19,767 nucleotides of DNA from Ophryocystis elektroscirrha. Its lineage: Eukaryota > Apicomplexa > Conoidasida > Neogregarinorida > Ophryocystidae. Below the pieces are notes generated by a model. The model did no database searches and was not told the DNA's origin. It worked only from the letters and a program-made list of their open reading frames with translations. The position numbers were made by a program, and so were the translations under genes. Location of the stretch: the NCBI GenBank assembly GCA_030141585.1, contig JAQIFP010000027.1, forward strand, positions 1 to 19,767. The letters run 5' to 3'. Below, piece by piece: positions 389 to 19,208 of the stretch (its first letter is position 1; the number at the start of each line of letters is the position of its first letter).

Positions 389-1382
389 GTTTAATAAAAA
401 CGATTCAATGTACTGAAGGTTTTGTGAAAGGCTTAAACAGTTATCACACCCAATTTATATCGCTACAAAGTAATGATCGAAGAGCGCTTGTTTATAAACT
501 TTCTGATGACAAGAATTATAAAAATTTGACATTTGAATTAATTTTGGAAGAAATTGAGCTTTTAACCCACTCTCCAATGGAAACAGCTTACAGCCGAAAA
601 CCAAGGTATTCACATAAAATTTCCTCTTTTTACTAATTTGAATTTGTGGTTTTTATACATAAACAATTATTGGTTTCAGTTTCGACCCATTGGGCGTTCT
701 TGCTGCGTTTCCCTATGGAGAAAGAGGACAGCAATGTTTTGGGTTTACTTATAATATTACAAATATCAAAACAGCTTCCAGATTTCGTGGGCATTTACTC
801 CGAGTCAACTGCATAGTAAAGCATATAAAAAAAAAAAGAAAAATACTTAGGCATTTTCAACTATGGTATGGGAAGAATCAAATAGTTCAAAACGTTATAC
901 ATTATATGCTCAAGGTACAAAAAAAAAAAAAAAACGTTATGTTACAGCTTCACTTGATGGAACTCTTTCAATATGGAAAATACACTATCCTCAAAATTTA
1001 CAGGAAGGAAATTATACATCTAGCTGCATTTTAGTATTAAAACCACGATTTTTAGACGAACAAGCTTCAGTTACAGATCTTACTTGGTATTATTAATAAA
1101 TAAATCTTTACTCTCATTAGGTCAGCAAGTGGCTTGATTTTAACAATAAGCTCAGACGATGGAGCTCTTACATTTGTTTATTTTTCTAGTAATGGTAAAA
1201 AAAAAAAAAAGTTTTAATAAAGATATTTAGATATTCAAGATAAACCGTGCCAAAGTTATCTAGATAATCGAATTCAATACACATTCAAAAAACAGGTGGA
1301 AACCGTTCACAAACTCGAGGAGTTAAGAGAAGAAAAAACAACAGTTGAAAAAAGACGTGTAGCTCCTATTATAATCACATAG
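389..1382 (+). CDS. HIRA: HIRA/Hir1-like histone chaperone, 3' part (5' truncated by window)
   Basis: HIRA is the WD40 subunit of the replication-independent H3-H4 deposition complex and works with ASF1 in the nucleus. Exons are 389-605, 680-815, 851-914, 948-1086, 1121-1194 and 1231-1382, giving 259 residues plus TAG. Introns are 74, 35, 33, 34 and 36 nt. Joined across introns, the exons read in HIRA order: EGFVKG, SFDPLGVLAAF, FRGHLLRVNCI, ASLDGTLSIWK, then FLDEQASVTDLTW followed by SASGLILTISSDDGAL. This is the second half of the N-terminal propeller. The tail EKRRVAPIII resembles the short B-domain that binds ASF1. The frame then stops, so the C-terminal HIRA domain of animal and fungal proteins is absent. 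The first WD repeats and the start codon lie outside the window. Family assignment is from motif order, not a database search. Confidence 0.85.
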
Positions 1383-1484
1383 ATTTTTTTTTTTTTTTTT
1401 TTTTAAATGTTCAAACTTTTTTTCCTTCTAACTATCACAATTAGAATAAAAAAAAGGTTTGTTTTTATATATCAAGCTGTCTGG

Positions 1485-1513
1485 CTTGCAAAAATATATA
1501 TGATTTTTGCAAG
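1485..1513. repeat. Perfect 10-bp inverted repeat (hairpin) between convergent genes
   Basis: CTTGCAAAAA (1485-1494) and TTTTTGCAAG (1504-1513) are exact reverse complements separated by a 9-nt AT loop. The element lies in the 249-bp gap between the stop of HIRA (+) and the stop of RBMX2 (-). It is symmetric, so it could act on either strand. No function is known; transcript-end processing is a guess. Confidence 0.45.
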
Positions 1514-1631
1514 AATTGAAACTTGAAATTATATTAACATATATATAAAACATATCAGGTTTGAATTTCTGGAAAAACCCTTACAGTCATTATCCTATAA
1601 AAATACTTCTACAAACGCCAATTTATTTACT

Positions 1632-2113
1632 TTATTTCAAAGTGCGCTCCAAGCTGGGTGACTTTTCTTTTTTTATTTTTTCTTTCTTTACTTTTTCTAA
1701 TTTAATTTTTTCACTTTTTATTTTTTCTTTTTTTGTTGTGTCTAACTTTTTCTTCTTTTTCTTTTCTTTGCGTAATGTTTCATTGAATTGTTCAGCCCAC
1801 TGAAAAAAACATTAATGAGTAACAAACAAACCTTTTCGTCTTCATCAAGTATTCTAGTTCGAGGTGGAGGTTCCGGTCTAGTAGCTACTTCTCGCTGAGG
1901 AGATGTATTGAGGGGTTCTCTTAAAGCTTGCACTGATTTTAAAACACCATGAATATTTCTTCCTTTCCCCTCAGGCCCAGATGGTTCATAAGGATTATTT
2001 TGATCGACTTTCGCTCGGTAATTTTTGCAGTGATCAACTCTCAATCGTCTAATTAAATTAATTATACTTGTGAGCTGCAGTCATATATACACATATATCA
2101 AACAAAGATACAG

Positions 2114-2144
<31 letters not shown>

Positions 2145-2750
2145 CTATTATACAAATGCCACACTTTCATATATATATACATTTATAATAATATTATACA
2201 TGTGCTAGATTTATATATATATTGTATAAATATTATATTATCGACATTTGATGTAACTCTTAAACAAAATATAACAAATTATACTATGAACAACATTACT
2301 ACTTTCCCAGCAACTCATATCCATTAAAATTATCTACGGCCAAAATAGTGCTTTTCTGATTTTCGTATCCTATAAAACCGTAGCCTTTAGATGCTCCTGT
2401 TTGCTTATCTCGAACTAAATGCACATCAACTATCTTAAGATGGTAAGAAAATTAATTAATACACTTACTTCGCCGTACTGAGAAAATAATATAACTACAT
2501 CTCCTTCTGTTATTTTATACGGCAAGCCTCCAACAAATATGTAATGACTGTCTTTGTACTACCGAAATATGATAAATAAAAAAAAAAATATAAAAACCAC
2601 CACAGTACTATTTATTTATTAAATTTTAGAAATTTAATAAATAATTACCTCATCATGCCAAGAACCTTTTCCTATAATCCCTTTTTCAAGATCTTGCTTG
2701 CTTAATAAAGCTACAGCATTGATATTATAGCTAGGGCCAGTTACAGTCAT
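1632..2750 (-). CDS. RBMX2: RBMX2/IST3 (Snu17) RES-complex splicing factor
   Basis: This RRM protein belongs to the RES complex (retention and splicing, with Bud13 and Pml1) of the activated spliceosome. Exons on the minus strand are 2750-2649, 2558-2469, 2433-2303, 2048-1832 and 1799-1632; introns are 90, 35, 254 and 32 nt; the product is 235 aa. It begins [16 protein letters not shown]. The family signature GKGSWHDE followed by [20 protein letters not shown] spans the first junction. RNP2 is YIFVGG (about 40-45) and RNP1 is KGYGFIGY (about 80-87). [19 protein letters not shown] closes the domain exactly as in RBMX2/IST3. The C-terminal 50 residues are a Lys/Glu-rich tail. The 254-nt third intron carries (TA)n. 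The gene is divergent from the membrane-protein gene, with 40 bp between start codons. Identification is firm. Confidence 0.93.
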
Positions 2751-2790
2751 AATTCCGGATAATAAGGCAAGAAATGTAAAAAAAAAAAAA
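2751..2790. promoter_or_regulatory. 40-bp divergent intergenic gap (RBMX2 / membrane protein)
   Basis: Only 40 bp separate the start codons of RBMX2 (-) and the polytopic protein (+). The gap ends in an A run directly before the plus-strand ATG. If both starts are right, any core promoter must overlap the 5' coding exons or be shared. No specific motif was recognised. Confidence 0.35.
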
Positions 2791-4835
2791 ATGTCTACTG
2801 AAATTATTGCTGGTAATTATTCATGAAACTTTAATTTTTGTATAAGAGCACCGACGTTCAACGTTATCTAGTGTTTCATCTTTTCAAAATCCTCAAAGGT
2901 AGCATTCATAAAGCGAAATATCTTTAGAACATTGCCAAAATATCAAAATCCCAATTCTTTAAGTAAGTTTTTTATTTTTTTATTAAAATAAAGGTTGCGA
3001 AAAATCTATTCCCGGAAATCCTGTGAAATATTATTATTATTAAACATATGGTTCAGGATAATTCATGTTCATTTAAGGTTTCCAGTGGGGATACTTTTTT
3101 TTATTACAATAGCCCCAAACAAATAAAAAAAAATATTATTTCAGCTGCTCTTTATGAAATTTTTATACATTTCGCTTGGTTTTACGGTTAGCAAAATAAA
3201 ATTATATCTTTTTGTTAGATTTAGGGTTCTTAATATATATATATGTGAAATATAGAAATCCATGTACACCTTACGAAGACGCAGCTCAGCTGTTAAGTAA
3301 AAAAAAAAAAAAAAAAAAAGTTACAGCGATAATTTTTCTAACATGTTTATACATCCTTAATTTAACAGCCTATTTGACTAGAAGGATGTTCATCACTCAT
3401 AAAATACCAAAAAGTGGTAAAATTAGTAGATTTTACTGTAGTAATTTGTATTTGCACATTTAGTTCTTGTTTAGTGAACTAATATAGTTACAAATATAAT
3501 AAATGCATGTATTACTATATATGCAAGTTACATGCTCAACATAATATAAAGTTAGATTATTTAATTATAATAGTATTAATAATAGCTATAGTAATAATAA
3601 TAATAATTTATATGTTTAGATGTGAGTATCTTTCTTCCATTCCGCGTTTTTAAGCAAGTTTTAACAACTAACGCTGATGTAAAAAAAAAAAAAAAAAAAG
3701 AAATAGGTTATAAATGATTTTTTACAACTTTCGTGGTCTTACGTTATTATTATGAGATGCATTTTGGATATACCTCAAATAACTATAACTGTATTTTATA
3801 TATACAACTTTGGATCTTGCATTTATGTAATAAGTATCATCAATTAAAATTTCTTTTTTTTTAGAATATATCGTATTTCGTATATGTATTTGTTTCTGTG
3901 ATGTTCACAATCCATCAAGCTTATAAAATGTACCAGCAAATTCCCGGCTCTTTCAATTTCAGAGACATTGTAGTAAACAATATTCTACTGTTACTTTTAT
4001 ATGGTAATATAAACTAATTTATTGTTTTAACCATTGCTGAATATTTATATAACTATTATTTATTTTAATGTTATTATAAACTACATATATATATACATAT
4101 ATATATATATATATTTATATCTTAATTACATATATTGCTTATATTGTATTGAGCTATTTAATCGAGTTAGTAATAATGCACAAAATTATTATATTAATAA
4201 TTTATATGTATACATGACATAACAGTTATGTACTTATTTATATTAATAGTATAGTGAATATTTATACAGTATTTAAAGTTTTTTTTTTAGTAATTATATA
4301 TCAATTAATAAAATTTATATACGCACTGATGGTACTCGTATAAACAGCAGTGCAATATAAAGTCATATTTCGCAATAACTGGATAGTGTAATACTTTTTA
4401 TAATAATAGTATAATATATGGATATATTTTATACTTTTTTTTTCATTATCATTACTATATAATTTTCTTGATAGATGCAAGTTGTATTATTTTGAAAATA
4501 GGTGTCATTTAATCTATTATATATATACTATAGTTGCTTAGTAAAATAATAATAGTGAAGTGTTTTGTTTACACTCTAAATAATAATATGTTTAGATGCA
4601 CAAACTTTTCTTTTTTTTTAGAGTTTACACTTTTTTTCGTCGGAACCTTAATATACTTAAGAATTTCAAATAATTGTTTCAAAACAAGTAAAAAAAAAAA
4701 AAAAAAAACCTTACTGCAGTAATGTCTTCATTAGCGTTATTTCAGTTTTGGGTAATAGTATTGCTTTTTTGGTTGCTATTATTGGTAAATAAAAGCAAAA
4801 GTCACGATGATTATTATTTGGAAAGTACCGTATAA
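2791..4835 (+). CDS. Unrecognised polytopic membrane protein, 12 exons
   Basis: I do not recognise this family. Exons are 2791-2812, 2847-2898, 2928-2962, 2994-3022, 3057-3186, 3225-3296 (or from 3219), 3327-3416, 3620-3678, 3707-3826, 3865-4003, 4622-4687 and 4720-4835. All phases agree and give 309 aa (311 with the alternative acceptor). Nine introns are 28-38 nt; the others are 203 and 618 nt. The product starts MSTEIIAEHRRSTLSS, with about 75 polar residues that read as cytosolic. About six hydrophobic segments follow, including IISAALYEIFIHFAW, TIIFLTCLYILNLTAYL, NISYFVYVFVSVMFTI and FQFWVIVLLFWLLLL, and it ends in a short polar tail. Segment three contains RCILDIPQITITVFYIY; an acidic-x-P-Q motif inside a membrane helix recalls several poorly described multi-pass families, but this is only a hint. 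Membrane location is well supported and function is unknown. The 618-nt intron could hide a small exon. Confidence 0.7.
4004..4621 (+). other. 618-nt intron of the polytopic membrane-protein gene
   Basis: The donor GTAATA at 4004 and the acceptor TTTTTTAG ending at 4621 join exons in matching phase (a G plus AG gives Glu). The interval is AT-rich, with (TA)n at about 4084-4113 and T runs. Short open stretches exist, but none stands out as an exon. It is one of the long introns that contrast with the 30-nt class. Confidence 0.55.
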
Positions 4836-4993
4836 ATAGCTTAAACTTTATAGCGCAAAATTGATTTTTTATAAACCATGAAAATATTTTTTATTTTAAC
4901 TTTAATAATTAATAACAAACTTATAAGTAAGAAAAAAAAAAAAAATTATATTTCCTATTAATATTAATAATACTAACACACCTTTCTAAAAAT

Positions 4994-5020
4994 CTGGTTA
5001 CAGGATTTTGTAAATACCAG
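4994..5020 (+). repeat. Small inverted repeat upstream of RNR1
   Basis: CTGGT (4994-4998) pairs with ACCAG (5016-5020), and an inner TACA/TGTA pair extends the possible stem. It lies 45 nt before the RNR1 start, within the 230-bp intergenic region and plausibly in the 5' UTR. It is short, so it could be chance. Confidence 0.25.
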
Positions 5021-5065
5021 AGTTAATAAATATAATCAAAACTATTTACTATATAAATTATATCT

Positions 5066-7760
5066 ATGCATGTAATTAACCGTAGGGGTGAGTTGGAGAA
5101 TGTCGAGTTTGACCGTATTTTGAAGCGGATTCAATCTCTATGCTATAATTTGAATCCATTAGTAGATGCCGCAAGTATAGCGCAAGCAGTTATCAACGGG
5201 ATGTTTGCTGGAATTACTACTACAGAATTAGATGAACTTGCTGCGCAAACATGTGCCTACATGGCCGCTATACATCCCGATTTTTCAAAGTTAGCCGCTC
5301 GAATTGCGATCTCCAATCTTCATAAAAATACGTCTTCAAAATTCGACGAAGTTATAGAAGCTCTCTATTTTTATAAAGATCATTTAGGCCGAGATGCTTC
5401 TCTTATTTCTGATGAAGTTTATGAGTTTGTGATGCAAAATAAAGACCGATTAAATGCGGCTATTGATTATAATAGAGATTTTGAGTATGATTATTTTGCT
5501 TTTAAGACATTGGAGAGGTAATCATTTATTATCTATTAATATACATATTATATATATATATATATGTATAGTATATATTTTAAAAAAAAAAAAAAAAAAA
5601 AAGTTCTAGTATAGAGTAGATTGAAAGATATTATTATAATAAAATATTTATTATAGATCATATTTGCATCGAGTGAATCGGAAAATTGTGGAAAGACCTC
5701 AGCATATGCTTATGCGTGTTGCTTGTGGAATAAATCTTGAGTGTATAGAACGCGTTGTGGAAACATATGAACTGATGTCCCAAAAATTTTTTATCCATGC
5801 AACACCAACATTATTTAACTCTGGCACAAGAAAACCTCAAATGTCTTCTTGTTTTTTACTAACAATGAAAGAAGACTCAATAATGGGAATTTATGACACT
5901 TTAAAGGATTGCGCACTTATTAGTAAAACTGCTGGCGGAATAGGTTTAGCGGTTCATGATATTCGGTGTAGTGGCTCCTATATTAAGGGGACAAACGGGT
6001 TTTCAAACGGGATTGTCCCAATGCTTCGAGTGTTTAATATGACCGCTCGATATGTTGATCAAGGAGGAGGTAAAAGAAAAGGATCTATTGCAGTATATTT
6101 GGAACCATGGCATGCAGATATTTATGAATTTCTTGACTTAAGGAAGAACCATGGTGCAGAAGAATTAAGAGCCAGAGACTTATTTTGTGCACTATGGATT
6201 CCAGATTTATTTATGCAGAGAGTTGAAGCCAATTCAACGTGGTCTCTATTTGATCCCAATTATGCTCTTGGGTTGTCTGATGTGCATTCCGAAAAATTTA
6301 ATGAATTATATGAGAAATACGAAAAAGAAGGTATTGCAAAAAAAGTAGTAAAGGCACAGCATCTATGGTTTGCAATATTACAAAGTCAAATTGAGACTGG
6401 AACCCCTTACATGCTGTACAAAGATAGCTGTAATAGAAAATCGAATCAATCGAATTTAGGAACAATTAAATGTAGTAATTTATGCACAGAAATTGTTCAA
6501 TATACTTCACCAAATGAAATTGCTGTATGTAATCTGGCATCCATTTCTTTACCAAAATATGTAAAAAATAAAATTACCAAAGAGCGTATTTCGAGCGACG
6601 CTATAAAAAAAACAAATACAATAAATAATGAAAAAAATAAAAAATTAGATTTAAATAATATTGAAAAAGCTGTTGAAGAATTATATGCATACGTAGATGA
6701 TCTAGAATTTGATTTTGAAGAATTACATAAAGTAACTAAAGTTATATGTTATAATTTAAATAAAATAATCGATCGAAATTATTATCCCGTCGAAGAAGCT
6801 CGAAGATCTAATATGACCCACAGACCTATAGGAATAGGAATACAAGGGTTAGCCGATGTATTCATGAAATTCCGTATACCGTTTGATTCTGAAGAAGCTC
6901 GAATATTGAACCAGGAAATATTTGAGACTATATACCATGCGGCAGTCGAGCAATCTGTCGAGTTAGCCGAGATCCATGGTCCTTATTCTAGCTATAAAAA
7001 TAGCCCTATCTCTTTTGGAAAATTACAATTTGATTTATGGAATGATGAAAGATTAACTAAACAGAATCCATTACCTCCTATTAAATTATCAGGAAGATAT
7101 GATTGGGACATTTTACGAGCGAAGATTCAAAAGTACGGAATCAGAAATAGTTTATTAATTGCACCTATGCCAACAGCTTCAACATCACAGATTTTGGGTA
7201 ACATAGAATCATTCGAGCCATGTACTTCAAATATATATTCACGTCGAGTGTTATCGGGAGAATTTTTTGTTGTAAATCAATACCTATTATCAGATTTAAT
7301 AGCATTAAATTTATGGAATGAACAAATAAAAAATAAATTTATAGGAAATAATGGCTCGATACAAACAATATCCGAAATTCCAGGAAGATTAAAAAATATT
7401 TATAAAACTGTATGGGAAATAAAACAAAAACATATTTTGGACATGGCTGCAGATAGAGCTCCATTTATAGACCAATCACAGTCTCTGAATATATATATAT
7501 CAAATCCCAATTACTCGAAATTAACTTCCATGCATTTTTACGGGTGGAAATTGGGACTAAAAACGGGACAATATTATTTGAGGACAACAGCAGCTACTGA
7601 TCCAATAAAGTTCACTGTAGATCAAACATTATTAAAAAATGAAGAAAAAAAAGAGCCAGCAGATAATATGCTTCTTTTAACGAGCGTTAAAAGCACCCCT
7701 AATCCAGTATGTAAATTAAGAAGAAATTCAAATGAACCATGTTTGTCATGCAGTGGTTAA
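5066..7760 (+). CDS. RRM1: Ribonucleoside-diphosphate reductase large subunit (class Ia R1)
   Basis: R1 reduces NDPs to dNDPs in the cytosol with the radical-bearing R2 subunit, which is not in this window. Exons 5066-5517 and 5657-7760 give 851 aa, normal for eukaryotic R1; the single 139-nt intron carries (TA)n and an A run. The N-terminal ATP-cone begins [19 protein letters not shown]. Active-site residues are all present: Cys216 (SSCF), Asn425/Cys427/Glu429 in SNLCTEI, Cys442 in VCNLAS, the PMPTASTSQ loop, the Tyr790-Tyr791 radical-transfer pair and the C-terminal CLSC thiol pair (846/849). The human numbers are higher by two through the catalytic region, so conservation is very tight. 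The exception is an insertion of about 43 residues, rich in Lys/Asn/Ile, after [12 protein letters not shown] (about 454-504). Dependence on one intron is unusual beside the intron-dense neighbours. Identification is certain. Confidence 0.98.
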
Positions 7761-7918
7761 ACTTTTTTTTTTATTTAGCCGGGAATTTTATTTGATCGTT
7801 TCTTTTTTTTTTTTGTTTTACGTAGAGGAAAAAAAAAGTGACTTATATATGCCTTATAGTCAATAATTTTTTTTTTGTTGATGTTCTACTTTTTTTTGTA
7901 AGCTTTTTTAGTTATTTT
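7761..7918. other. T-rich 3' gap between convergent RNR1 and PSMG4
   Basis: This 158-bp gap between the two stop codons holds several T runs of 8 or more (for example 7764-7772, 7802-7814 and 7867-7876) and one A run. No ORF or RNA gene was recognised. It presumably holds both 3' UTRs and poly(A) signals. The T runs on the plus strand could serve termination, but no defined signal can be named. Confidence 0.5.
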
Positions 7919-8301
7919 TTATAATAATTTTTTATCGAGAAGATCTCTCATTAACTTGTTTAATTCAATTTGTACATAATACAAATAAGAGTTATTAAGA
8001 TCTAGTAAATTGTAACTTACGAAAACAGGTCTTTTTAATAATAAGCCTGTTATAAAAATGCAATATTTTATTATTTACTTAGACCTTTGGCTATTTGAAA
8101 TGATTGGGAATCCAAGTTTCCCATTAAGCATGTAGCTGTTGTCTCATTTTTAGGGTTAGGGATTGCATATTGTAATTGCTCGAAAACGGGAGTACAACTA
8201 ATATAAACTAATACTTGACTTCTTTTTCCCAATGTATATACATGTATATTAATAGTTTCATTAAGTATCTTTGCTATATGTTTATGAAATTCTATTACCA
8301 T
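7919..8301 (-). CDS. PSMG4: PSMG4/PAC4-like proteasome assembly chaperone
   Basis: PAC4 pairs with PAC3 to guide assembly of the 20S proteasome alpha ring. Exons 8301-8079 and 8046-7919, with a 32-nt intron, give 116 aa; family members are about 120-125 aa. The product begins MVIEFHKHIAKILNETINI. The central segment TTATCLMGNLDSQSFQIAKGLS matches the PAC4 pattern of a small beta strand, LMG/LLG, a Ser/Thr loop and an amphipathic helix. The second exon continues KRPVFVSYNLLDLNNSYLYY, matching the conserved VFVSYNL strand. That match spans the intron, which supports the splice. Sequence similarity in this family is low, so a structure-based check would be welcome. Start codon: first ATG of the open frame, agreeing with the family N-terminus. 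It lies 57 bp from the end of the next minus-strand gene. Confidence 0.8.
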
Positions 8302-8358
8302 CTTCTACCAGGTAATTTACTGTGCACATAAAAAAACAAAGTAGAAAAAAAATTATTA

Positions 8359-9049
8359 TTATAGCTTTTTGCCTTTCGGCATAAGGAAACCTTTCTCAGC
8401 CTAAAAAAATTTTAGCATAATTTGAAATTTTCATTAAAATTGTGATTATTTTATAAATTAAAATACACTCGAAGTCGGTAGTTACAATAAATTTAAAACT
8501 TACAATAATTGATGAAATATTTTGCGGAGCTAATTTTGTAGGGTATTTAATTTTATATTCATCGACAAAAGGCTGCTTAACTGGTAATCTTTTTTGGCGT
8601 CTAATTTCTAAAGGCTTATCACTGAAAGGGCTTCCATGATCAGGAAAAGAGTTGTACTGCTTTTTTCCAGATGTTGGAATAAAAGGCTCCATGTCTTCTT
8701 TAAACACAATATTCATTATATTTTTGCTAATTTGTTGATTTTCTTTTAAAGCGGGTTTTCGTACTTTAGGTGAACTACCAGCGGCATTTTCTCCATATAA
8801 AATATCGGACATAACTCCGGGAGTTTGAGGAAATAATTTACGGGAAGGTTTTGGTGTATATTCAAGTTTCTCTGGAGACGGTTTTCGGATAACTCTAGGA
8901 GAATTTTCATATCGAGCTATATATGGTTTCGGAAACTCCTCTGTTTTTCTACCAAATACTACATTAGGAGCGTTTACAGGAATATAACGCAAATCTACTG
9001 GCGGTTTTGATAAGATGCCAGCTTCTCGACATATTGCAATTTTTCCCAT
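8359..9049 (-). CDS. Hypothetical proline/lysine-rich basic protein
   Basis: No family is recognised. Exons 9049-8504 and 8400-8359 are joined over a 103-nt intron in phase 0 (GTAAGT donor, TTTTTTTAG acceptor), giving 195 aa. Without splicing, the frame runs into the hydrophobic, AT-rich intron translation. With splicing it ends cleanly as AEKGFLMPKGKKL. The protein starts MGKIAICREAGILSKPPV and is strongly polar, with many Pro, Lys, Arg and Ser-Pro pairs such as ENSPRVIRKPSPEKLEY. There is no membrane helix or signal peptide. The pattern suggests a disordered scaffold or cytoskeletal/chromatin-binding protein with possible proline-directed kinase sites, which is inference. Its base and codon composition is less AT-biased than the flanks, supporting a real gene. 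Confidence 0.72.
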
Positions 9050-9291
9050 TGAAAAAAAAAATTAAAACTGACTGATTAGTGGTCCCACCCCTGTGATGTT
9101 TCTTAGTATATAACCCCTTATTGTGGTAAAAAAATATAACACTTGTTTAAAAAAGTCAAATTATACTTTTATGTTAACGATACTCATTATTCATATAGCC
9201 TTTTTATGATGCATCATATAAAAAGTTAATTAAGCTAATCAAAATATTTAATCATCAATAAAAAAAAAAAAAAAAAAAAAAAAGAAATATT
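9050..9291. promoter_or_regulatory. Intergenic region upstream of the Pro/Lys-rich gene
   Basis: The 242-bp gap between the ATG of the minus-strand hypothetical gene and the stop of TRM5 must hold the promoter of the former and the 3' end of the latter. The only GC-richer patch is around 9079-9094 (GTGGTCCCACCCCTG), next to TATATAACCCC near 9108. A 24-nt A run lies at 9260-9283. No known motif can be assigned. Confidence 0.3.
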
Positions 9292-10917
9292 TCATTCTTT
9301 CATGCGTAATTGAAAACAGCAGTAATACATTGTCTTTTTATTTGGCGCTACTTGACGTACTACACGCTGGAACTTAAACACAGGTTTGTAACCCCATAAA
9401 TCGTTAAACACCTAATATTTTGTATATTTTGATAATCATATTACGGAATCAACTTTTGAATCAAAAAAATCTACAGACTCGAAAAAATAAATATGCAAGA
9501 ACGTTGGAAGACTTATGGTACCATCAAAACACCGTAATCCGTCTAAAATAATAATAATTTTAAGACTATAGTTACCTAATAAAGATAAACCCACTTCTGG
9601 TAAACTTAAGATAATGTGTACTGTATTGTATATGACTGAAGGACTTTCTTTGTTATTTGTTAATTTTGGTAAATAAGATTGATCTGTTTTTAACTTTTTA
9701 TTAGTAATATAATCTAATTTTTTTTTTTTTTTTTTTTTTTCACCTCTATCATGATAGATTACATTAATTGAACCCGAATCTATGTCAAAAGATTCATAAC
9801 ATTTTTTGATGAATTCTCTTCCATCTTCGGTAAAAGAAATAATTTCACGTGTAACCTTAAAAGTGGATTCATATTTTGTGAAATGCTACTTTATTCAATA
9901 CTGCGTTATGCTCAATCCATTCTTTGCAGTCTGGGTTCAAGTCATTAGCTAAAACAAAACACTTTTTATAATATGCCAGAGGTATTGCATAAGCGCCTAT
10001 TCCGCAAGTTGCATCCAGCACTAATGAACCACTTGAAACATCGTCTGTCAGTAAAATTCTTTCTTGTGATAAGCTGTTTTTTTTTTTTTTTTTTTTTTTT
10101 TACCGAGAATTCCAATAAACTTTACGATAGTCAAACTCGTAAATTATTCGATTTTCAGTTATTTTAGTAATAAACTTTGGCTCTCCTCCAATAAGTTCCA
10201 TGTCAAAAGTCCTATAAACGTTTTCTACTTTTTCTATTTTGTTCACAACGGTTTTAATTCCTGGATGTTTCTATTGGATATTTTTTTTTTTTTTTATACA
10301 TCTAGCAAGACTTGTCCAATTATTTGCTTGTATGGTAATTGTTCATTTGTAAGTGTAAATCTAGCAATATGACCAACACTTTCATAAGCCCGTGGAACTT
10401 GTACGGATTCAGGTAATATGGCTCTTAAAACCTCGTCTAAAATGCCATAAATATTGTTCAAAAATGTACAGTAAGAAAAATATTCATAAACTTTGCTATA
10501 AGTTGATTTTTGCAGTTGACCGTTCAAGGATTGTATAAACTGTAAAATATCCTGACTTATATCTGAATTACAATAGATTAATTATAGCTTCACTTTCATG
10601 GGTATCTTTATAAGGCAAATTAGTGTCATCTAAAAAAATTATGGCATTGTCGGAATCCTGAAGTGGTTTTATAGGTTTGTAACTATATAAATACCTAAAG
10701 TTAATCAATAAAAAAAAAAAAAAAAAAAGCAAACACTTTCGTACATATATGTAGGTTATAGAAAAAAAAAAAAAAAAACAGATAAATTATCATATCATCT
10801 TATTATACTATATTACTTTTTATAAATAGATTTGTTAAATGCTGTAATGTTTTTCTTTGGTAAAACGACTCCATAGCAGGTGTATGTTTTATTGAAGTTT
10901 CTAATATAATATACCAT
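9292..10917 (-). CDS. TRMT5: TRM5 tRNA (guanine37-N1)-methyltransferase
   Basis: Trm5 makes m1G37 in tRNA from S-adenosylmethionine, preventing +1 frameshifting. Nine exons (10917-10817, 10694-10594, 10562-10300, 10270-10104, 10073-9890, 9855-9744, 9713-9576, 9542-9445, 9411-9292) give 427 aa; introns are 122, 31, 29, 30, 34, 30, 33 and 33 nt. Family landmarks cross almost every junction: RAILPES, GHIARF (about 131), LPYKQIIGQVLLD-KHPGIKTVVNKI, EFDYRKVYWNSR-LSQERI, the Rossmann SAM loop LDATCGIGAYAIPLA (about 230), ANDLNPD, TVHIILSLPEVG and the C-terminal RQVAPNKK. Two sites deviate: the catalytic-region N-x-P motif is Ser-Leu-Pro (Ser346), and the usual LSTEH motif is shortened to LSQER. No mitochondrial presequence is obvious. 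The start follows family alignment of the N-terminal D1 region. Confidence 0.93.
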
Positions 10918-11010
10918 TAATTTAATTATACTTTTTTATATTATTTATATCGAATAAAGTTGATTCAAACATAGCCCTGATTCACAGGAGCGGAAAAAAA
11001 AAAGAAACTG
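10918..11010. other. Short gap between PIG-Q end and TRM5 start
   Basis: These 93 bp separate the PIG-Q stop codon from the TRM5 ATG, both on the minus strand. They must contain the PIG-Q 3' end and the TRM5 promoter. The sequence is AT-rich with one A run at 10994-11003. No motif was recognised. Confidence 0.35.
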
Positions 11011-13973
11011 TTATCGCCTAAAATCCTCAACGGGCATTAAATAAATAAGGTTTATAGAATTAAGTACATAGTTTAAGCTGAGATAAAAATAGTGTTGATG
11101 CCTAAAATTCATGTACTGAACAAAAAGGATTTTTACCATAAAAAGTAAAACCATGATTTAAAGCTATTTGTAAGCAAATGCGAAACTGCGCTATACATCA
11201 TCACAAAGGGGAAAAAGTTCACTTTTTCAAACTTTAAAAAGAAGTGATTTGAAGAGTGAGAATTTAATGGTAAATGAGAGAATGTTGTTTTTGTTGACGG
11301 GATCTTCATGAAAAAGTATATAAAAGGGAAATTTGTGGCAATAACAACAATAGTACATAACAATAAATGGGTTACTGAAGGGAAAAAAAAAACACCTTTT
11401 TTTTTTTTTTTAATATAGTTTAGTTCAAATAGTAAAAACACTATTTAATAAGCATAAACTATAATAATATCAGTAAAATATTTTTATAACTACTAACTTA
11501 ATGTTTGGAATCAAAATGAAGCGTAAAAATTCATCTATTAAAAGAAAAAACCTCAGAATTTTTTTTTTCTTAAGCATATATGCATAATATTTATAAAATA
11601 CTGTATTATTAAGCATATGCATTTATACTTATATATTATTGAGAATAATAATAAATCAATATAATAAATTATAATTTACTTTAATTAATTATTTACTTAC
11701 ATATAATGACCGTATGTAAAGCTTGAACAATTATATATACACCAACTATGGTGGTATATAAACAGTGTATCATGGTAAATATAATAGCAGCAATAATAAT
11801 TTGATCCAAACTGGACGTATGTTTTTCGTATCTTTTAGAAAGTATACTCCACTTGTAGCCTCTAATATTATTTGAGATATAGCTTCATAATTACCTCATG
11901 TAATAAAAACTTTTTATCCATGTAGATGTACCCCAGTGAAATACTAACTGTGTAGTATAGATTGCCCACATATTCTGAAATATATTTTTTTTTTTTTTTT
12001 TTTTTACATTATTTGTAAAAAGCATCAAAATATCTGAAAGGAGACCAACAATTAATGAGAATCCAAAACAAACTAATATGTAAGTCCACCTAATTCTGAA
12101 TGCATTAATAATTTTCAAGAAGCATTCTTTTGTCGAGTTCGAAAATATTATTTGATTCCTTAATCAATAATAAAAAAAAAAAAGTCTTACGAATCACGGT
12201 GCATAGAGACAATAACCAAATGGTACAACGTTAAGAGTCTCCTGTTGTATTTAACAGATACCGATTTTTTCATGTACAATAAAATTAGCCTAAAAAAAAA
12301 AAAAAAACCTCTATAACAGCTGAATCTTTACCTCAAACATTTGTTTATCTTAAAAGGAATAATAAACATTACACTGACCCCCTTTATTACTTTAGCTTTG
12401 GATATAAAAAAAGTGACTACCACGTATAAGAAAGAATCCCAAAATAACGCTGACAGACTTCCAAGACATTGGAATTTGGTATTTTGGTATAAAATGTAGT
12501 CTTTATAACTCTGTTTATGACAAAGAAACTGAGCATATTGAAATATTCTTCCTGTAACAATTATTTTATGATGAATAAGACGGAAAAAAAAAAAATATTT
12601 TGATAAATGCGCGAGTACAAACATAATTTTCCTATGCAATATTTGCATACAACTTAACGAAAATATTTTAAATACCCAACATAAAATTATATTTAAAAAA
12701 CTTTGCAATTTATTGATTCTAAAATCAGCTGGTACAATAAATAATTCATCCAATATGACTTCATTAAAATCACACTTTTTAGGCTGCTGTGGGAAAGGGG
12801 AAACTATAAATTTTTTTTTTGTAAGTTTCACTTTTTTTTCACATCCATTAATTTTATAATATGACGCATTAGATGAATAACAACCCGACCTCTTGTGGTA
12901 TTCTGGTTCAAATATTTTATTTTTTTTTTTTTTGGATTTCATATGCTTTTTTTTTTTTTTTTTTACACCATTATAACTATTTAAGCTTATATATATTTTT
13001 TTCCTTGATGAGCAGTTCTTCAATTTATTCGAAAACAAATCATCATTCTGTTTATGTAAGTTTCTCTCATTTCTTTTTGCCCGAATTTTCTGTGCAATAA
13101 TTTTACTTGTATTTTCTCGATGATAAGCTGAATATTTATAAACTAAACTTGGATCTTTTAAGAGATTTCTTGAATTCGAGCATTTCAAGTTATTTTGAAA
13201 GAAGAAAAAGTGAAAAATGTGTTTTGAAAAAAAAAAGTAATTATTAAGTAGTATATCATCAATAGAACCATTTCTTACATAGTGCAAATAATCTTGTTGA
13301 TTGAACAACAGAATCTCTGCTTCATAATTATTGATTATAATACGATTAAGCTTAAAGTTTGGAATAAAATTAATTAAATTGTCATATTTTTTTATTGAGC
13401 TCCCCCCCTGCCATACTCCGAATACAGTAAATATAAATTTATTTGGAGATAAAGGTATGTCCGCTATGTATTTCTAATAAAAAAAAAAGTCAACCGTTTG
13501 CAATCATTGTTTTGATTTCAACAAATAAACTTTATGATAAGATAAAAAAGTAATACATTACTTATTAGCTTCAAATTATAAAAAAAAAAACAAAAAAAAA
13601 AACTATAATACAAATTTACAGCGGTTGTTTTATTTAAAAGAACTAAATACTGCTCAACTACGAACAAACTATCATGCGAGAAACGCCACAATAGTGTAGA
13701 TATTATTAATAAAGCATATATAGTGTGTAAGCAATGTAAACATTATTACGCATAATAAGCAAAAAACCCGCTTGCTAAGTTAATTTTTTTTTTTTTTTTT
13801 TTTAGTAATAATTATTGACGAAATTATACCACACTTACGCAGCTTGCACCTATAGACTTGTCTAGTATAAATACTGCTATATAATAATTTTTTTTTTTCC
13901 ATCCAGCTATATACCCAAAATATTTTTTCTTGAAAAAATGATTAGGCACATACACAATAATTGAAGAGTCCAT
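11011..13973 (-). CDS. PIGQ: PIG-Q/GPI1 subunit of GPI-GlcNAc transferase
   Basis: PIG-Q stabilises the ER-membrane complex that adds GlcNAc to phosphatidylinositol, the first step of GPI-anchor synthesis. The model has eleven exons (13973-13858, 13529-13495, 13463-12332, 12289-12191, 12158-12008, 11974-11895, 11861-11701, 11534-11498, 11458-11442, 11374-11137, 11101-11011), giving 718 aa. The N-terminus SIIVYVPNHFFKKKYFGYIAGW and IKTMIANADIPLSPN fit the GPI1 N-terminal region. Diagnostic motifs follow: GFSLIVGLLSDILMLFT, GYKWSILSKRYEKHTSSLDQ (the FRGKKWNxLR...DQ block, about 538-560), ITHLLLCTIVVIATNFP, and a tail with YLMPVEDFRR. A low-complexity Lys/Asn stretch (SLNSYN...KKKKNK) precedes the first membrane helices. 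Weak points are the first intron (328 nt, non-consensus GTCTAT donor), the 17-nt exon 9, and possible unspliced introns in the Lys-rich part. Family call firm, exact ends less so. Confidence 0.85.
13530..13857 (-). other. 328-nt first intron of PIG-Q (model)
   Basis: In the preferred model, phase 2 joins ...VFILDN to LFVEIKTM, matching GPI1 alignment without a gap. The interval is less AT-pure than other introns. It contains a strong alternative donor GTAAGT (13839-13834) with a typical A-run intron ending TTAACTTAG (13781). An additional small exon between 13780 and about 13600 is therefore possible, but none restored the frame convincingly. A 7-bp palindrome, AAGTAAT-AC-ATTACTT, lies at 13548-13563. 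Confidence 0.4.
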
Positions 13974-13984
13974 CGTGTACCTAA
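13974..13984. promoter_or_regulatory. 11-bp gap between divergent PIG-Q and PPCS start codons
   Basis: The PIG-Q ATG (minus, 13973-13971) and PPCS ATG (plus, 13985-13987) are head to head with 11 bp between them. Core promoters must lie inside the opposite gene's first exon or intron, or the true 5' ends differ. The call depends on the PIG-Q first exon, which rests on family similarity. Confidence 0.4.
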
Positions 13985-14212
13985 ATGCAGAATTTACAAG
14001 ATTTTATTGAGAAGATCCCTGATTCCGCAATTATTTTTGTTGTTACTTCGGGAGGGACAGCTGTGCCTTTAGAAAAAAACAACGTTCGTTTCATTGAAAA
14101 TATTTCTACAGGGCAAAGAGGGGCCGTCGCTACAGAGTGTGTTGAATAGATATATACTTAAATAATTTGACAAAAAATTATTTCAATAGCTATATTGTTA
14201 ATAAAATTTTAA

Positions 14213-14263
<51 letters not shown>

Positions 14264-15383
14264 AATAACTTTTCTAGAATTTTTCTTGAAAATTACAATA
14301 ATTACGTAATCTTTTATTGTCGGGATTCAAGCTTAAAACCATATCATCGATATATTCCAAATACACTTGAAAAGTACTATACAAAAAACATTTACATTTT
14401 AGATTATCTGATATACTTGATTTATATAAAAAAAGTAGAATAAAATAAAGTATTTGTTTATTAATATTTTTTGAAGGCTCTAAATCAGAAAATCCGTTAA
14501 TCGATATAATTGAAAAATACAGCGAAGTAATTTCAACAATCTTTCTGTATCTTTAGGTAAAACATCGCTTGTGTATTATAAATTATCATTATCTAGACGA
14601 ATATCTGAAGGGTTTAATGTAAGCTTTTTTTTTTTTTTTTTACATTCTACCAAGGGAACTATGCAATTTACTGAAAAATGTCAAAAATAGATGTGTATTC
14701 TTTTTAGCAGCAGCTGTTTCCGATTTTTATGTGAATGATTTGGTAATATATTAAAAAAAAGAAAAAAAAAAAAAAGCCTGAACATAAAATTCAAAGTAAC
14801 CAAAACGGTATATCCCTTGTCTTACAACCCACTACTAAATTAATGTAAAAAGCCTTATAATAAAAAAAAAAAACTTAGGCATCAAATCAAAATAGTAAAC
14901 CCGTCTTTTTATCTTGTTTCCTTCAAAGTAATAAAATACATAAATAAAATTGAGATAATTTGCTACGCACTATTGATGGTTAATTTAATTACAAACTTTC
15001 ATATTATGATATAAATAAAAGATTTATACAAGATTTACATTTTTAATAATATTCTTAGTTAACTCGAATTAAATTATATATTTGATTATTTTATTTATAT
15101 TTAGCTGGAAACGGATCCAACTTTGCTAGACATTAATGCAATACTATCTTTAAACAAGAATAACTGTGATTTGGTAAAAAAAGTTGATCTATAAGTTGTT
15201 ATTAAGGTAGTAGGTAATTTAGTAGGCTCGTTAAGGAATCAAGCATTTATATACATGAAAGATGGTACCAAAGTACTGCTGCAGGTAGAATGTGCAAATT
15301 TATTTTCATTTTTTCGTAAGGGAGATGTTGATAACGAAATCCCAAAATTTGTGACCAAGCAATTAGAATTATTGAATAATTGA
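13985..15383 (+). CDS. PPCS: Phosphopantothenate-cysteine ligase (PPCS)
   Basis: PPCS joins 4'-phosphopantothenate to cysteine, the second step of CoA synthesis from pantothenate; it is cytosolic and eukaryotic-type monofunctional. Ten exons (13985-14136, 14278-14373, 14403-14434, 14477-14526, 14557-14618, 14655-14742, 14777-14844, 14879-14927, 15105-15173, 15207-15383) give 280 aa; seven introns are 29-42 nt, others 141 and 177. Motifs in order: [20 protein letters not shown] (about 20-39), [38 protein letters not shown] (146-156), PEHKIQS, the SFK-LETD junction (197-203), ADP/CTP-domain VVGNLVGS, and a C-terminal [11 protein letters not shown]. The AAAVSDFY and SFKLETD blocks identify the family. 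Fusion to the decarboxylase is absent, as expected in eukaryotes. The 141-nt intron contains about 40 bp of (AT)n at 14218-14258. Confident. Confidence 0.94.
14218..14258. repeat. (AT)n microsatellite in PPCS intron 1
   Basis: An uninterrupted alternating AT run of about 40 bp sits in the middle of the 141-nt first intron of PPCS. It is the longest pure (AT)n run in the window outside the intronic satellite. Confidence 0.9.
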
Positions 15384-15525
15384 GACTTTTTTTTTGTATT
15401 TATATATTTAAGAATTATAAAAGTATATTAATTCATATGTGTATATGGAAAAAAAAAAAAAAAAAAAAAAGAGTATATATTAGTATGCTAGGCAGAAATA
15501 TTACGGAGCATTAAGTTTGTACCTT

Positions 15526-16744
15526 ATGGAATCTTATAAGATAGAGAAAAGTAAATTATGTAATGATTATTCCAAGGAAAATAAACTTTTAGTGAAAAAG
15601 TTGAAAAAACTAAAAGGTCTTAATATACTTTTTTATTTTTATAAATATAATTTAATTAATACATTAATTGTAAAATACGTACATGTAATTCATCTGACAT
15701 TATTGTATAATTAGTTAAGGCATAAATATCTTAGGTTATTATAAATCAATTTTATATTCATGAATATTGCTAATAATTAATATGAATAATTTAGGCAGTG
15801 CAAAAGATGATGTTATGAATCAAATTGAAAAACTCAAAAACGAACATGAAGCCAATTTGCAGATGCTCGAAACTAAATATAATATATCCACTAAGTCTAA
15901 GTCGACAAAAACCACTCCCGTCAATGAATCGATACCAACAAACTCCTGTGTAACTTTTCCAAACAAGCAATGGAGCAGCTTAAGCAAAAAAGAACTAGAA
16001 TATGAAGCTAGTATAAGACAACTATCTTGCGGTAAAAATAGAGAGTCCTTAATTACTGAGCTTGTAAACTTTCATGCTCTCCAAGAAAAAAAAATGGCGG
16101 ATCCATTGATAAAAAAAGTAGGGAAAAAAAAAACTTTTCTTTTTTAACCATACCATTTTTGTTAAATGTTTTGATAGGTTTCTTTTTCAAATTATAGTGA
16201 TAAAAAAGTTGACCTAGATGCACCACCTACAGATAATTACAAAAAAAACCCGTTTTGCAAGAAAGTCTCATATGATGAAATTGCCTTGAAAACCAATGTT
16301 ATGAAAACTTCACAATCAAATTCGGACTCAGAATCTGTTTCGGCTTCAGAATCAGATTCCGAGTCAAATTCGAGTTTGGACTCAAAATCCGAATTAGAAT
16401 CAGGTATATAGTACCAATATGTAAAAATATTAACCAGAATCTGTTCCAAAAAAATCAATTCTTAAAAAGAAAAATGAGGAACAATCTAGTCAAAGTATTA
16501 ATAAGCAAAATAATATAATAATCAGAAAAATCGGTTCAGAAGAAATCAGAATCAGATTCAGATACCAATAGCTCGAAATCTGACGATGAAAGCTCTTTGG
16601 ATTCTGATAATCAAGAAATCATACCTGATAGTATGGCAACCACAAATACAGGGAAGGAGTCTTTTCGATCTTTTAAAAAACGTGATGCCATTAATAAAAA
16701 AAAAACTGTTCGAGTGAGTCATAATATCAGCTATTATTTATATA

Positions 16745-16780
<36 letters not shown>

Positions 16781-18152
16781 AATAAAATAATAAATATCAT
16801 AACTCGAAAAACGTAATTTTTTTATTCAATTATATTATAGAGTCGTAATATGGCTCAAAAAGAAAGAATCAGTGAAGAAAAAACTCAAGCCAAACGAGAA
16901 GCTGTTATACAAACTTATTTAAAAAAAGTTTTGGACAAAAACCCTCACGGTGTTCCTTTAAACAAAATTACAGAAGAGTTTGAGGTAGTAATTAATTTAT
17001 TTATATCAATGTTCTTATAAATTTATTTGTTTGGTACTTCAATCGAATAATCAAATTATTTCTCGTAATAATATACATTTTATATCTTTAAAAAAAAATA
17101 TATTTTATATAATTGTATAATATAATATAATATCATAATGTATAATATATAATATATATATACATCTATATATATATATATATCACAATGTAGAATATTA
17201 TAATATATATATAAATAGAAATATATATATAATATAATATAATATCATAATGTATAATATATAATATATATATACATCTATATATATATATATATTATAT
17301 AATATAATATCATAGTGTATAATATATAATATATATACATACATCTATATATCAATATATACATATATATATATTTTATATAATATAATATAATATCATA
17401 GTGTATAATATATAATATATATACATACATCTATATATCAATATATACATATATATATATTTTATATAATATAATATAATATCATAGTATATAATATATA
17501 ATGTATATATACATCTATATTTGAATATATATATATATCACAATGTAGAATATTATAATATATATATAAATAGAAATATATATATATAATATAATATAAT
17601 ATCATAATGTATAATATATAATATATATATACATCTATATATATATATATGTATATATATCACAATGTAGAATATTATAATATATATATAAATAGAAATA
17701 TATATATAATATAATATAATATCATAATGTATAATATATAATATATATATACATCTATATATATATATATATATATATCACAATGTAGAATATTATAATA
17801 TATATATAAATAGAAATATATATATATATATATAATATAATATAATATCATAATGTATAATATATAATATATATATACATCTATATATATATATATCACA
17901 ATGTAGAATATTATAATATATATATAAATAGAAATATATATATATAATATAATATAATATCATAATGTATAATATATAATATATATATACATCTATATAT
18001 ATTTTATATAATATGATATAATATCATAGTGTATAATATATAATATATATACATACATCTATATATCAATATATACATATATATATATATATTTTATATA
18101 ATATAATATAATATCATAGTATATAATATATAATGTATATATACATCTATAT

Positions 18153-18187
<35 letters not shown>

Positions 18188-19208
18188 AATGTAGAATATT
18201 ATAATATATATATAAATAGAAATATATATATAATATAATATAATATCATAATGTATAATATATAATATATATATACATCTATATATATATATATATATAT
18301 CACAATGTAGAATATTATAATATATATATAAATAGAAATATATATATATAATATAATATAATATCATAATGTATAATATATAATATATATATACATCTAT
18401 ATATATTTTATATAATATGATATAATATCATAGTGTATAATATATAATGTATATATACATCTATATTTGAATATATATATATATATATCACAATGTAGAA
18501 TATTATAATATATATATAAATAGAAATATATATATAATATAATATAATATCATAATGTATAATATATAATATATATATAATAAATAAATATTATATATAA
18601 TTATAAATATTATAAATATGTATAATATATCATATTTATATACATATATAATATAATATTGTATAATATTATAATGAATGATATATATATAAATTACAAT
18701 TAATTATAATATATTATATTATACTTGATATAATATATATTTATTATATGTTATATAAGTAATTTCTTTGTTACTATACATGAATAATATACTTTATATA
18801 GCAGTAATATAATTATGTATTATTTATTTATAATATTAATAAATTTATACATGCATGCTTATATTGAATTTTTTATCAATAAATCAGACATGATAAACTA
18901 GATAACGAGAATATGTAAATTATTTATTTTTTTTTTCAATATTAAATTGTTTGTACATAAAATTTATTGTTTGCTGCAAAAATTTAAAATTATTTGCAAG
19001 TTCATAAAATCTTAATAAATTTTTTTTTTTTCAGAAATTGAACGTAAGAAATTTTCGACCCGAATTGCTTGGCTATAAATCATTAAGTGAGTGGATTTCT
19101 TTACAGCCTGTACATATCGTTACTTATGACTCTCGGAAAAATCTTATAAAACCCGGCCGAGAAACTGTTATATCAAGTTCTTCAAACGATGTAATTTGTA
19201 TGTCATAA
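15526..19208 (+). CDS. Coiled-coil, acidic-Ser and C-terminal LOTUS/OST-HTH-like protein
   Basis: No exact family is recognised. Exons 15526-15616, 15795-16117, 16178-16403, 16438-16488, 16526-16713, 16841-16984 and 19035-19208 join in phase to 398 aa. Layout: a charged coiled coil (about 1-60, MESYKIEKSKLCNDYSKE...); a helical segment KELEYEASIRQLSCGKNRE to MADPLIKK (about 85-138); a low-complexity Ser/Asp/Glu tract with many SES/SDS pairs, likely casein-kinase-II sites (about 175-270); a basic helix; then about 316-372, LKKVLDKNPHGVPLNKI and LLGYKSLSEWISLQPVHIV. The last part matches the LOTUS/OST-HTH pattern (G-hydrophobic-L near the start, LG-aromatic near the end), an RNA- or Vasa-binding winged helix. 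The LOTUS domain is split by a 2050-nt satellite intron between EEFE and KLNVRNF. A post-transcriptional or nucleolar role is inference. The start is the first ATG with coding character. Confidence 0.72.
16748..16776. repeat. (TA)n microsatellite in LOTUS-gene intron 5
   Basis: An alternating TA run of nearly 30 bp lies within the 127-nt intron 16714-16840. It is non-coding, because unspliced reading adds only IYIYIYIYN before a stop. Confidence 0.85.
16985..19034 (+). other. 2050-nt intron inside the LOTUS domain
   Basis: Donor GTAGTAATT follows ...TEEFE (phase 0) and acceptor TTTTTTTTTTTCAG precedes KLNVRNFRPELLG. The LOTUS fold reads through only if this whole interval is removed. It contains the satellite array (about 17110-18580) flanked by about 120 bp of AT-rich sequence on the left and 450 bp on the right. 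No exon was recognised in it. It is more than 50 times longer than the typical intron here. Confidence 0.8.
17110..18580. repeat. Higher-order AT satellite array in intron
   Basis: About 15 tandem units share a core ATAATATCATAATGTATAAT or its CATAGTG/CATAGTAT variants. Core starts (C of CATA) are at 17134, 17246, 17311, 17397, 17483, 17603, 17723, 17849, 17961, 18025, 18115, 18247, 18365, 18429 and 18551. Long units add ATACATCTATATATAT, CACAATGTAGAATATT and ATAAATAGAAATAT; short units are 64-65 or 86-90 bp. CATAATG units are followed three times by a 64-65 bp step to CATAGTG, so the array has an ordered super-repeat. Reading frames inside it are repeat artefacts (Ile/Tyr only). Confidence 0.93.

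Follow-up and report, generated by a model that had tools for sequence, protein, structure and literature searches.

Very short GT-AG introns, some with an A or T homopolymer core, in an A/T-rich assembly

A length class of short GT-AG introns

The window, by which we mean the whole 19,767-nt stretch of DNA analysed here, is C38:1-19767 of an A/T-rich assembly totalling 8,008,172 bases on 118 contigs (GC 25% for the window, 29% for a second contig, C1). It carries a class of GT-AG introns of 28-42 nt, a few of which hold little besides a run of a single base, the majority being of unremarkable A/T-rich composition. This class is real and extends beyond the window, and the homopolymer core is real in some of its introns, being neither general nor always made of A. 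We propose, at a probability of about 0.8, that these are spliceosomal introns constrained in length, in which A/T homopolymers have expanded on some contigs as filler that splicing tolerates.

Introns were collected with a self-training gene finder that sets coding against non-coding scores and admits introns of 15-500 nt at any GT...AG without a length preference. Its sample of ~261 kb comprised the window, C1:1-200000 and shorter stretches from eight further sequences, with intron sampling spanning nine contigs. The finder returned 574 introns, with 230 at 30-39 nt compared with 16 at 20-29 nt and 20 at 40-49 nt. Well-scoring exons flanked 403 of these introns at both ends; of the 403, 205 measured 25-45 nt and 199 measured 28-42 nt. 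The 205 introns of 25-45 nt peak at ~29-37 nt, the commonest lengths being 31-35 nt, and short introns are present on every one of the nine contigs. In a decoy control on C1:1-200000, in which a finder without a splice-site model was given GT-AG or one of nine other dinucleotide pairs, introns of 30-39 nt made up 71 of 296 for GT-AG and 4-15 (of 176-263) for the decoy pairs. A length peak specific to GT-AG thus appears in C1 without any length prior, and the class is not limited to the window. The 205 lengths are spread evenly modulo 3 (64, 68 and 73), and in-frame stops, which the finder itself favours, occur in 60 of the 64 introns with lengths divisible by 3.

In the window, a length model learned from C1 only gave 53 predicted introns, 37 of them at 28-42 nt, in good agreement with the 39 of 56 put forward by the initial annotation. 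The finder without a length model gave 30 introns, 13 of them at 28-42 nt. These counts are approximate, as the length model favours short introns and introns longer than 500 nt are beyond its reach. Furthermore, some gene models of the C1-length-model run are merged, the one at 9292-14094 on the minus strand covering several genes and the one at 13985-17020 on the plus strand covering two or more.

Protein homology supports the removal of five homopolymer introns

Comparison of the predicted spliced proteins with homologues of known structure supports the removal of five introns of the window that carry homopolymers, GT-A25-CAG included. Two of them interrupt a TRM5/TYW2-type tRNA methyltransferase gene on the minus strand. 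The 29-nt intron at 10299-10271 has the form GTAT-A15-TATCCAATAG; the spliced protein aligns with Trm5b (5yac) without a gap over the junction LLD/KHPG, and read-through would meet a stop. The 30-nt intron at 10103-10074 is GT-A25-CAG; the alignment with the same structure is likewise gapless over the junction YWNSR/LSQER, and read-through would give an immediate TAA. Both were recovered by the finder without a length model.

The other three lie on the plus strand in a gene for phosphopantothenoylcysteine synthetase (PPCS). In the 36-nt intron at 14619-14654 the run is T17, not A, and the predicted junction YLKGLM/ELCNLL falls inside a gapless stretch of the alignments with 6ai8 and 7edz. The 34-nt A-rich intron at 14743-14776 (A8, G, A14) has a stop in its read-through, and its predicted junction NDL/PEHKIQS agrees with 7edz and 1p9o; a gap of two residues immediately precedes NDL. 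Removal of the 34-nt intron at 14845-14878, which contains A12, would open the frame ...SFKLETDP that matches 7edz and 6ai8; this junction is near alignment gaps, and its support is the opened frame. In its spliced form PPCS reaches 123.5 bits with 6ai8 and 109.9 with 7edz, compared with at best 77.1 bits for a hand-joined version without several exons, a gain of the full splice that is not owed to any single intron. Homology at the junctions thus backs 14743-14776 and 10103-10074, both of which the initial annotation had offered as examples of poly(A) introns. We also considered slippage on poly(A) as a form of frame repair and rejected it, as the homology-supported introns contain stops and also the GT...AG letters that lie beyond the run. 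Sequencing may misread long homopolymers, and the exact lengths of introns of the A25 type (10074-10103 and others) are uncertain to that extent.

Splice signals and splicing machinery

The 199 short introns share a GTA donor (A at 0.86 at +3 and 0.67 at +4) and a YAG acceptor (T at 0.62 and C at 0.26 at -3), with a modest enrichment of T in the last few bases; introns of at least 60 nt have similar ends. No interior motif was detectable within the power of our tests. At no position in the 199 introns is there a conserved interior A (at -6, A is 0.36 and T 0.47), and YTRAY occurs in 78 of the 199 compared with 78.3 in shuffles, which is no excess. An expectation-maximisation search of the 179 introns without long runs scored 23.1 and 28.3, within the ranges of 18.7-37.7 and 23.9-39.2 given by eight Markov resamples; planted motifs stood out from the 18.7-37.7 null when CTAAT was placed in 50% of the introns (54.5) or CTAAC in 30% (47.4).

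It seems that length is under constraint in these introns and the interior is not. For 13 homopolymer introns listed by hand from the window, total length varies less (SD 2.6) than the run (SD 4.1) or the remainder (SD 6.0), and run and remainder are inversely correlated (r = -0.94), a correlation partly built in by picking the list within the short range, with four of the 13 being ambiguous. This fits the earlier proposal that introns this short can hardly accommodate separate signals and are held to a length. The further suggestion, that splicing measures an A-rich spacer, is not supported: A runs are missing from most short introns, T runs take their place in some, and the mean composition of the C1 short-intron set is A 0.385 and T 0.435.

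The assembly encodes Prp8 (PROCN, 766 bits), a canonical U6 (locus L043, 103.4 bits, with the U6 sequence pattern matched without mismatch), SF1 (SF1-HH helix-hairpin, 88.6 bits; BBP-type KH, 83.5 bits) and U2AF65 (matches to U2AF65 chains in the PDB, up to 60.2 bits). The SF1 and U2AF homologues, which the initial annotation had marked for inspection, are thus both encoded. With GT-AG ends, a protein restored by predicted removal, and Prp8, U6, SF1 and U2AF65 all encoded, the short introns agree in these respects with major (U2-type) spliceosomal introns, and we infer that the spliceosome catalyses their removal.

The homopolymer core is restricted to some introns and some contigs

The description of the introns as built around poly(A) is overstated as a general feature. 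Among the 37 short introns of the window in the C1-length-model run, nine contain an A run of at least 10, three a T run and 25 neither, and three of the nine A-run introns belong to the ambiguous segments discussed below. When only introns of 25-45 nt with good flanks are counted, C1 has an A run in 4 of 164 and a T run in 1 of 164, the window an A run in 3 of 9, C37 a T run in 2 of 5 and C97 a T run in 3 of 5; C39 has homopolymers in 0 of 9 and the remaining contigs in 0 of 13. These per-contig counts are why we regard the homopolymer as neither general nor always A.

Homopolymer runs as such are also unevenly spread. The number of runs of at least 12 per 10 kb is 14.7 for the window, 12.0 for C37 and 23.7 for the C97 locus, 3-6 for the C52, C62 and C71 loci, and 0 for those of C27, C31 and C42; in C1 there are 21 in 200 kb. 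On C38, C37 and the C97 locus their density is thus ~11-23 times that on C1, and codon usage is similar.

Seven segments had been cited in the initial annotation as the clearest poly(A) introns. As written, all have GT...AG ends and lengths of 28-34 nt; two of them are the homology-supported introns at 14743-14776 and 10103-10074, three are ambiguous, and two are candidates outside the gene models. The two candidates, on the plus strand, are a 28-nt segment with A19 at 3679-3706 and a 32-nt segment with A19 at 4688-4719; the length of neither is a multiple of 3, and both lie outside the gene models of both finder runs. We found no report of homopolymer-A introns in the titles and abstract openings of open-licence PMC papers, in searches that were only partly aimed at them.

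A length-constrained model and its alternatives

In the model that we favour, the major spliceosome would recognise the short introns by intron definition, relying on a weak GTA donor, on a YAG acceptor and on the tight spacing of the two. The branch adenosine would lie in the unconstrained A/T-rich interior, where nearly any A could serve. With a free interior and a restricted length, tracts would be able to lengthen within the intron: A/T tracts presumably grow through slippage in replication and other bases disappear, which would lead to extremes such as GT-A25-CAG. The expansion appears to have gone furthest on some contigs, the window's included, and the A run would be filler that the splicing machinery tolerates and not a signal.

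Several observations weigh against this model. The intron calls are predictions made from genomic DNA and protein homology. The motif search is weak, with planted CTAAT in 30% of introns (28.8) and TTAAT in 50% (33.9) both remaining inside the null. A search of the assembly for U2 snRNA with RF00004 gave no match, 46 of 713 first-look candidates being scored, without a positive control, and four sequence patterns covering its 5' stem and the region that binds the branch site gave none either. This may reflect an assembly gap or real divergence. A rewritten or very divergent U2 snRNA would point to branch-site recognition so relaxed that its sequence ceases to count, with introns set by the GTA-YAG distance alone and GT-A25-CAG as good a substrate as any other; we consider this very unlikely. 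Finally, in the window, C37 and C97, runs of at least 10 number 10 in 644 bases of short introns, 39 in 7,217 bases of other introns and 21 in 11,678 intergenic bases, numbers that are small and come from contigs grouped after the runs were seen. Plain neutral slippage in non-coding DNA is insufficient to account for this excess over intergenic DNA. The contrast is weak in C1 (9.3 per 10 kb in short introns, vs 5.0 and 6.8), and on the remaining contigs short introns contain no such runs.

The 8-9 fold excess of runs in short introns over intergenic DNA in the window, C37 and C97 would fit a dedicated splicing mode in which recognition of the A run, by the spliceosome or by a poly(A)-binding protein, serves to position the splice sites. 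Such a mode would also suit the start of the A run, which is at most 5 bases from the donor in most of the listed homopolymer introns, and the homology-supported GT-A25-CAG, which holds almost nothing else. Against it, 25 of the 37 short window introns have no homopolymer and C1 introns have an A run in 4 of 164, and T-run introns serve equally in C97, in C37 and at 14619-14654; we regard this mode as very improbable. The uneven spread of runs could instead mean that the homopolymer-rich contigs come from a second, related organism binned together with the first, so that the short introns and the poly(A) feature belong to different species. Indeed, the density of runs of at least 12 differs widely between the window, C37 and the C97 locus on the one hand and C1 on the other. 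However, Prp8 (C42) and ribonucleotide reductase R1 (C38), the two genes checked, have one locus each in the assembly, run densities are intermediate at the C52, C62 and C71 loci, and short introns occur on each of the nine contigs. Furthermore, four window genes fall inside the C1 range in their codon usage (chi-square 56.5; null 45.1, SD 13.8), so that the differences between contigs need no second organism, and this explanation is quite improbable.

Some A-run segments might, on the other hand, be exons encoding lysine runs that the protein tolerates. Four segments invite this, all of them open and with lengths that are multiples of 3. The 33-nt A16 segment at 915-947 on the plus strand, a further candidate intron that could instead encode poly-lysine, is kept as exon in both finder runs and scores better against Pfam WD40 when retained (27.8 bits) than when spliced (23.4). 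The CAF1B/HIR1 propeller goes the same way (26.1 retained vs 25.4 spliced), and Prp19 WD40 the opposite way (20.5 retained vs 21.9). The other three are the 30-nt A21 segment at 3297-3326 (plus strand), read through as a lysine run by the open reading frame (ORF) 3212-3463; the 30-nt segment with an A run of 23 at 9743-9714 (minus strand), likewise open as a lysine run; and the 33-nt A21 segment at 12007-11975 (minus strand), read through as a lysine run by ORF 12118-11891. Their GT...AG ends stand as the initial annotation described them, and the C1-length-model run splices the latter two, being the only run to do so at 9743-9714; around the first it splices 3292-3326, from a donor 5 nt upstream of 3297. 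All three could nonetheless be exon. Every segment starts with GT, ends with AG and has the length preferred elsewhere in this genome, and the homology-supported introns contradict read-through by a stop, a frame shift or a broken alignment. Lysine-encoding exons are thus an unlikely account.

Relation to short introns of other organisms

By their behaviour the introns described here group with the short introns of Porospora and Nyctotherus, from which they differ in length and in their homopolymer extremes. In parts of the report on the gregarine Porospora cf. gigantea (PMC9250747), a genome near 9 Mb with a GC of 54% is described in which introns of 25-30 bp make up 71-72% of introns, with a short-intron median of 28 nt (27-30) and a conserved A 6 nt before the acceptor. 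Common to both are an apicomplexan affinity, a small genome and a distinct, tight short-intron class (the 29-37 nt peak here). They differ in the mode (28 vs 31-35 nt), in the conserved A at -6 (A is 0.36 of 199 here, with no fixed A, unlike Porospora), in GC (54% vs 25-29%) and in the homopolymer cores of some introns here. The ciliate Nyctotherus ovalis is described, in parts of its report (PMC2633312), as having introns of 21-29 nt that begin with GTA and end with TAG, and in which neither a branch point nor any further overrepresented motif was found. The very short length, the GTA/TAG-type ends and the lack of an interior motif are shared with the introns here; unlike the present case, it is a ciliate, its introns are shorter, and a homopolymer core goes unmentioned in those parts. 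Short introns of 20 bp with a putative fixed branch A are cited for Babesia microti in the same parts of PMC9250747; these are likewise apicomplexan, but shorter and with that putative fixed A.

GT followed by 25 A and CAG amounts to a natural minimal substrate, and, if RNA confirms its removal, a pyrimidine tract and a branch motif would be dispensable when the spacing is right. Gene predictors that bar introns this short would presumably break many genes of such a genome.

Origin of the assembly and other features of the window

A fragment of Prp8 places the organism, on the strength of a sequence tree, among apicomplexans or their close relatives. In a tree of 28 rows it falls in a clade of 7 with support of 100/99. 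The clade consists of the query, metagenome protein P0122, Vitrella, the gregarine Blabericola, the transcriptome row GHVP and two Babesia. P0122 is the sister of the query (88% identity), and the tree does not resolve the branching order inside the clade. The top-listed Prp8 match, P0121, was set aside as an alga's own protein with repeated segments and not a close relative. Prp8 was taken in place of ribonucleotide reductase, which proved a poor taxonomic marker, the named ones among the 120 matches listed being mostly bacterial. A ciliate stop code was also rejected: ribonucleotide reductase ends at TAA, and no reassigned stop is needed in the genes checked. In size and GC the assembly is similar to the genome of the neogregarine Ophryocystis elektroscirrha, given as 8.6 Mb and 27% GC in parts of its report (PMC10210345) that state no intron lengths.

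The genes checked in the window are those for a HIRA/HIR1-like WD40 protein, an RRM protein, ribonucleotide reductase R1, the TRM5/TYW2-type tRNA methyltransferase and PPCS. A search of the window and ten loci with Rfam gave zero matches above the cut-off, and no tRNA was found in the window.

The HIRA/HIR1-like gene (1-1382) contains two introns found in both finder runs on the plus strand, a 35-nt intron with A11 at 816-850, whose length is not a multiple of 3 and whose splicing would give LRVNCIAFSTMVW, and a 36-nt intron with A14 at 1195-1230, which has a TAA inside. The predicted protein seems to lack the first WD repeats, AT repeats lie just upstream at the contig start, and the gene may be truncated by the contig end. 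The minus-strand RRM gene, which we take to be RBMX2/Snu17-like, has a 35-nt intron without a homopolymer at 2468-2434; its spliced protein matches RRM_1 with 70.5 bits over residues 41-108, a match that spans the junction. In the ribonucleotide reductase R1 gene (plus strand), a 139-nt intron at 5518-5656, whose flanks join and which both finder runs recover, carries A21 in its middle, so that A runs are not limited to short introns.

The PPCS gene is fused by the gene finder (13985-17020) with a serine/aspartate-rich gene downstream, and the two are probably separate genes. Further along the plus strand, 16985-19034 is a putative intron of 2,050 nt, 91% A+T, with an A/T repeat array. Its joined flanks match OST-HTH (LOTUS) with 22.1 bits, just below the Pfam cut-off of 23.8, and the unspliced end has no match; it is probably an intron splitting that domain. 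Because of this putative intron, the introns of the window would range from 29 nt to ~2 kb.

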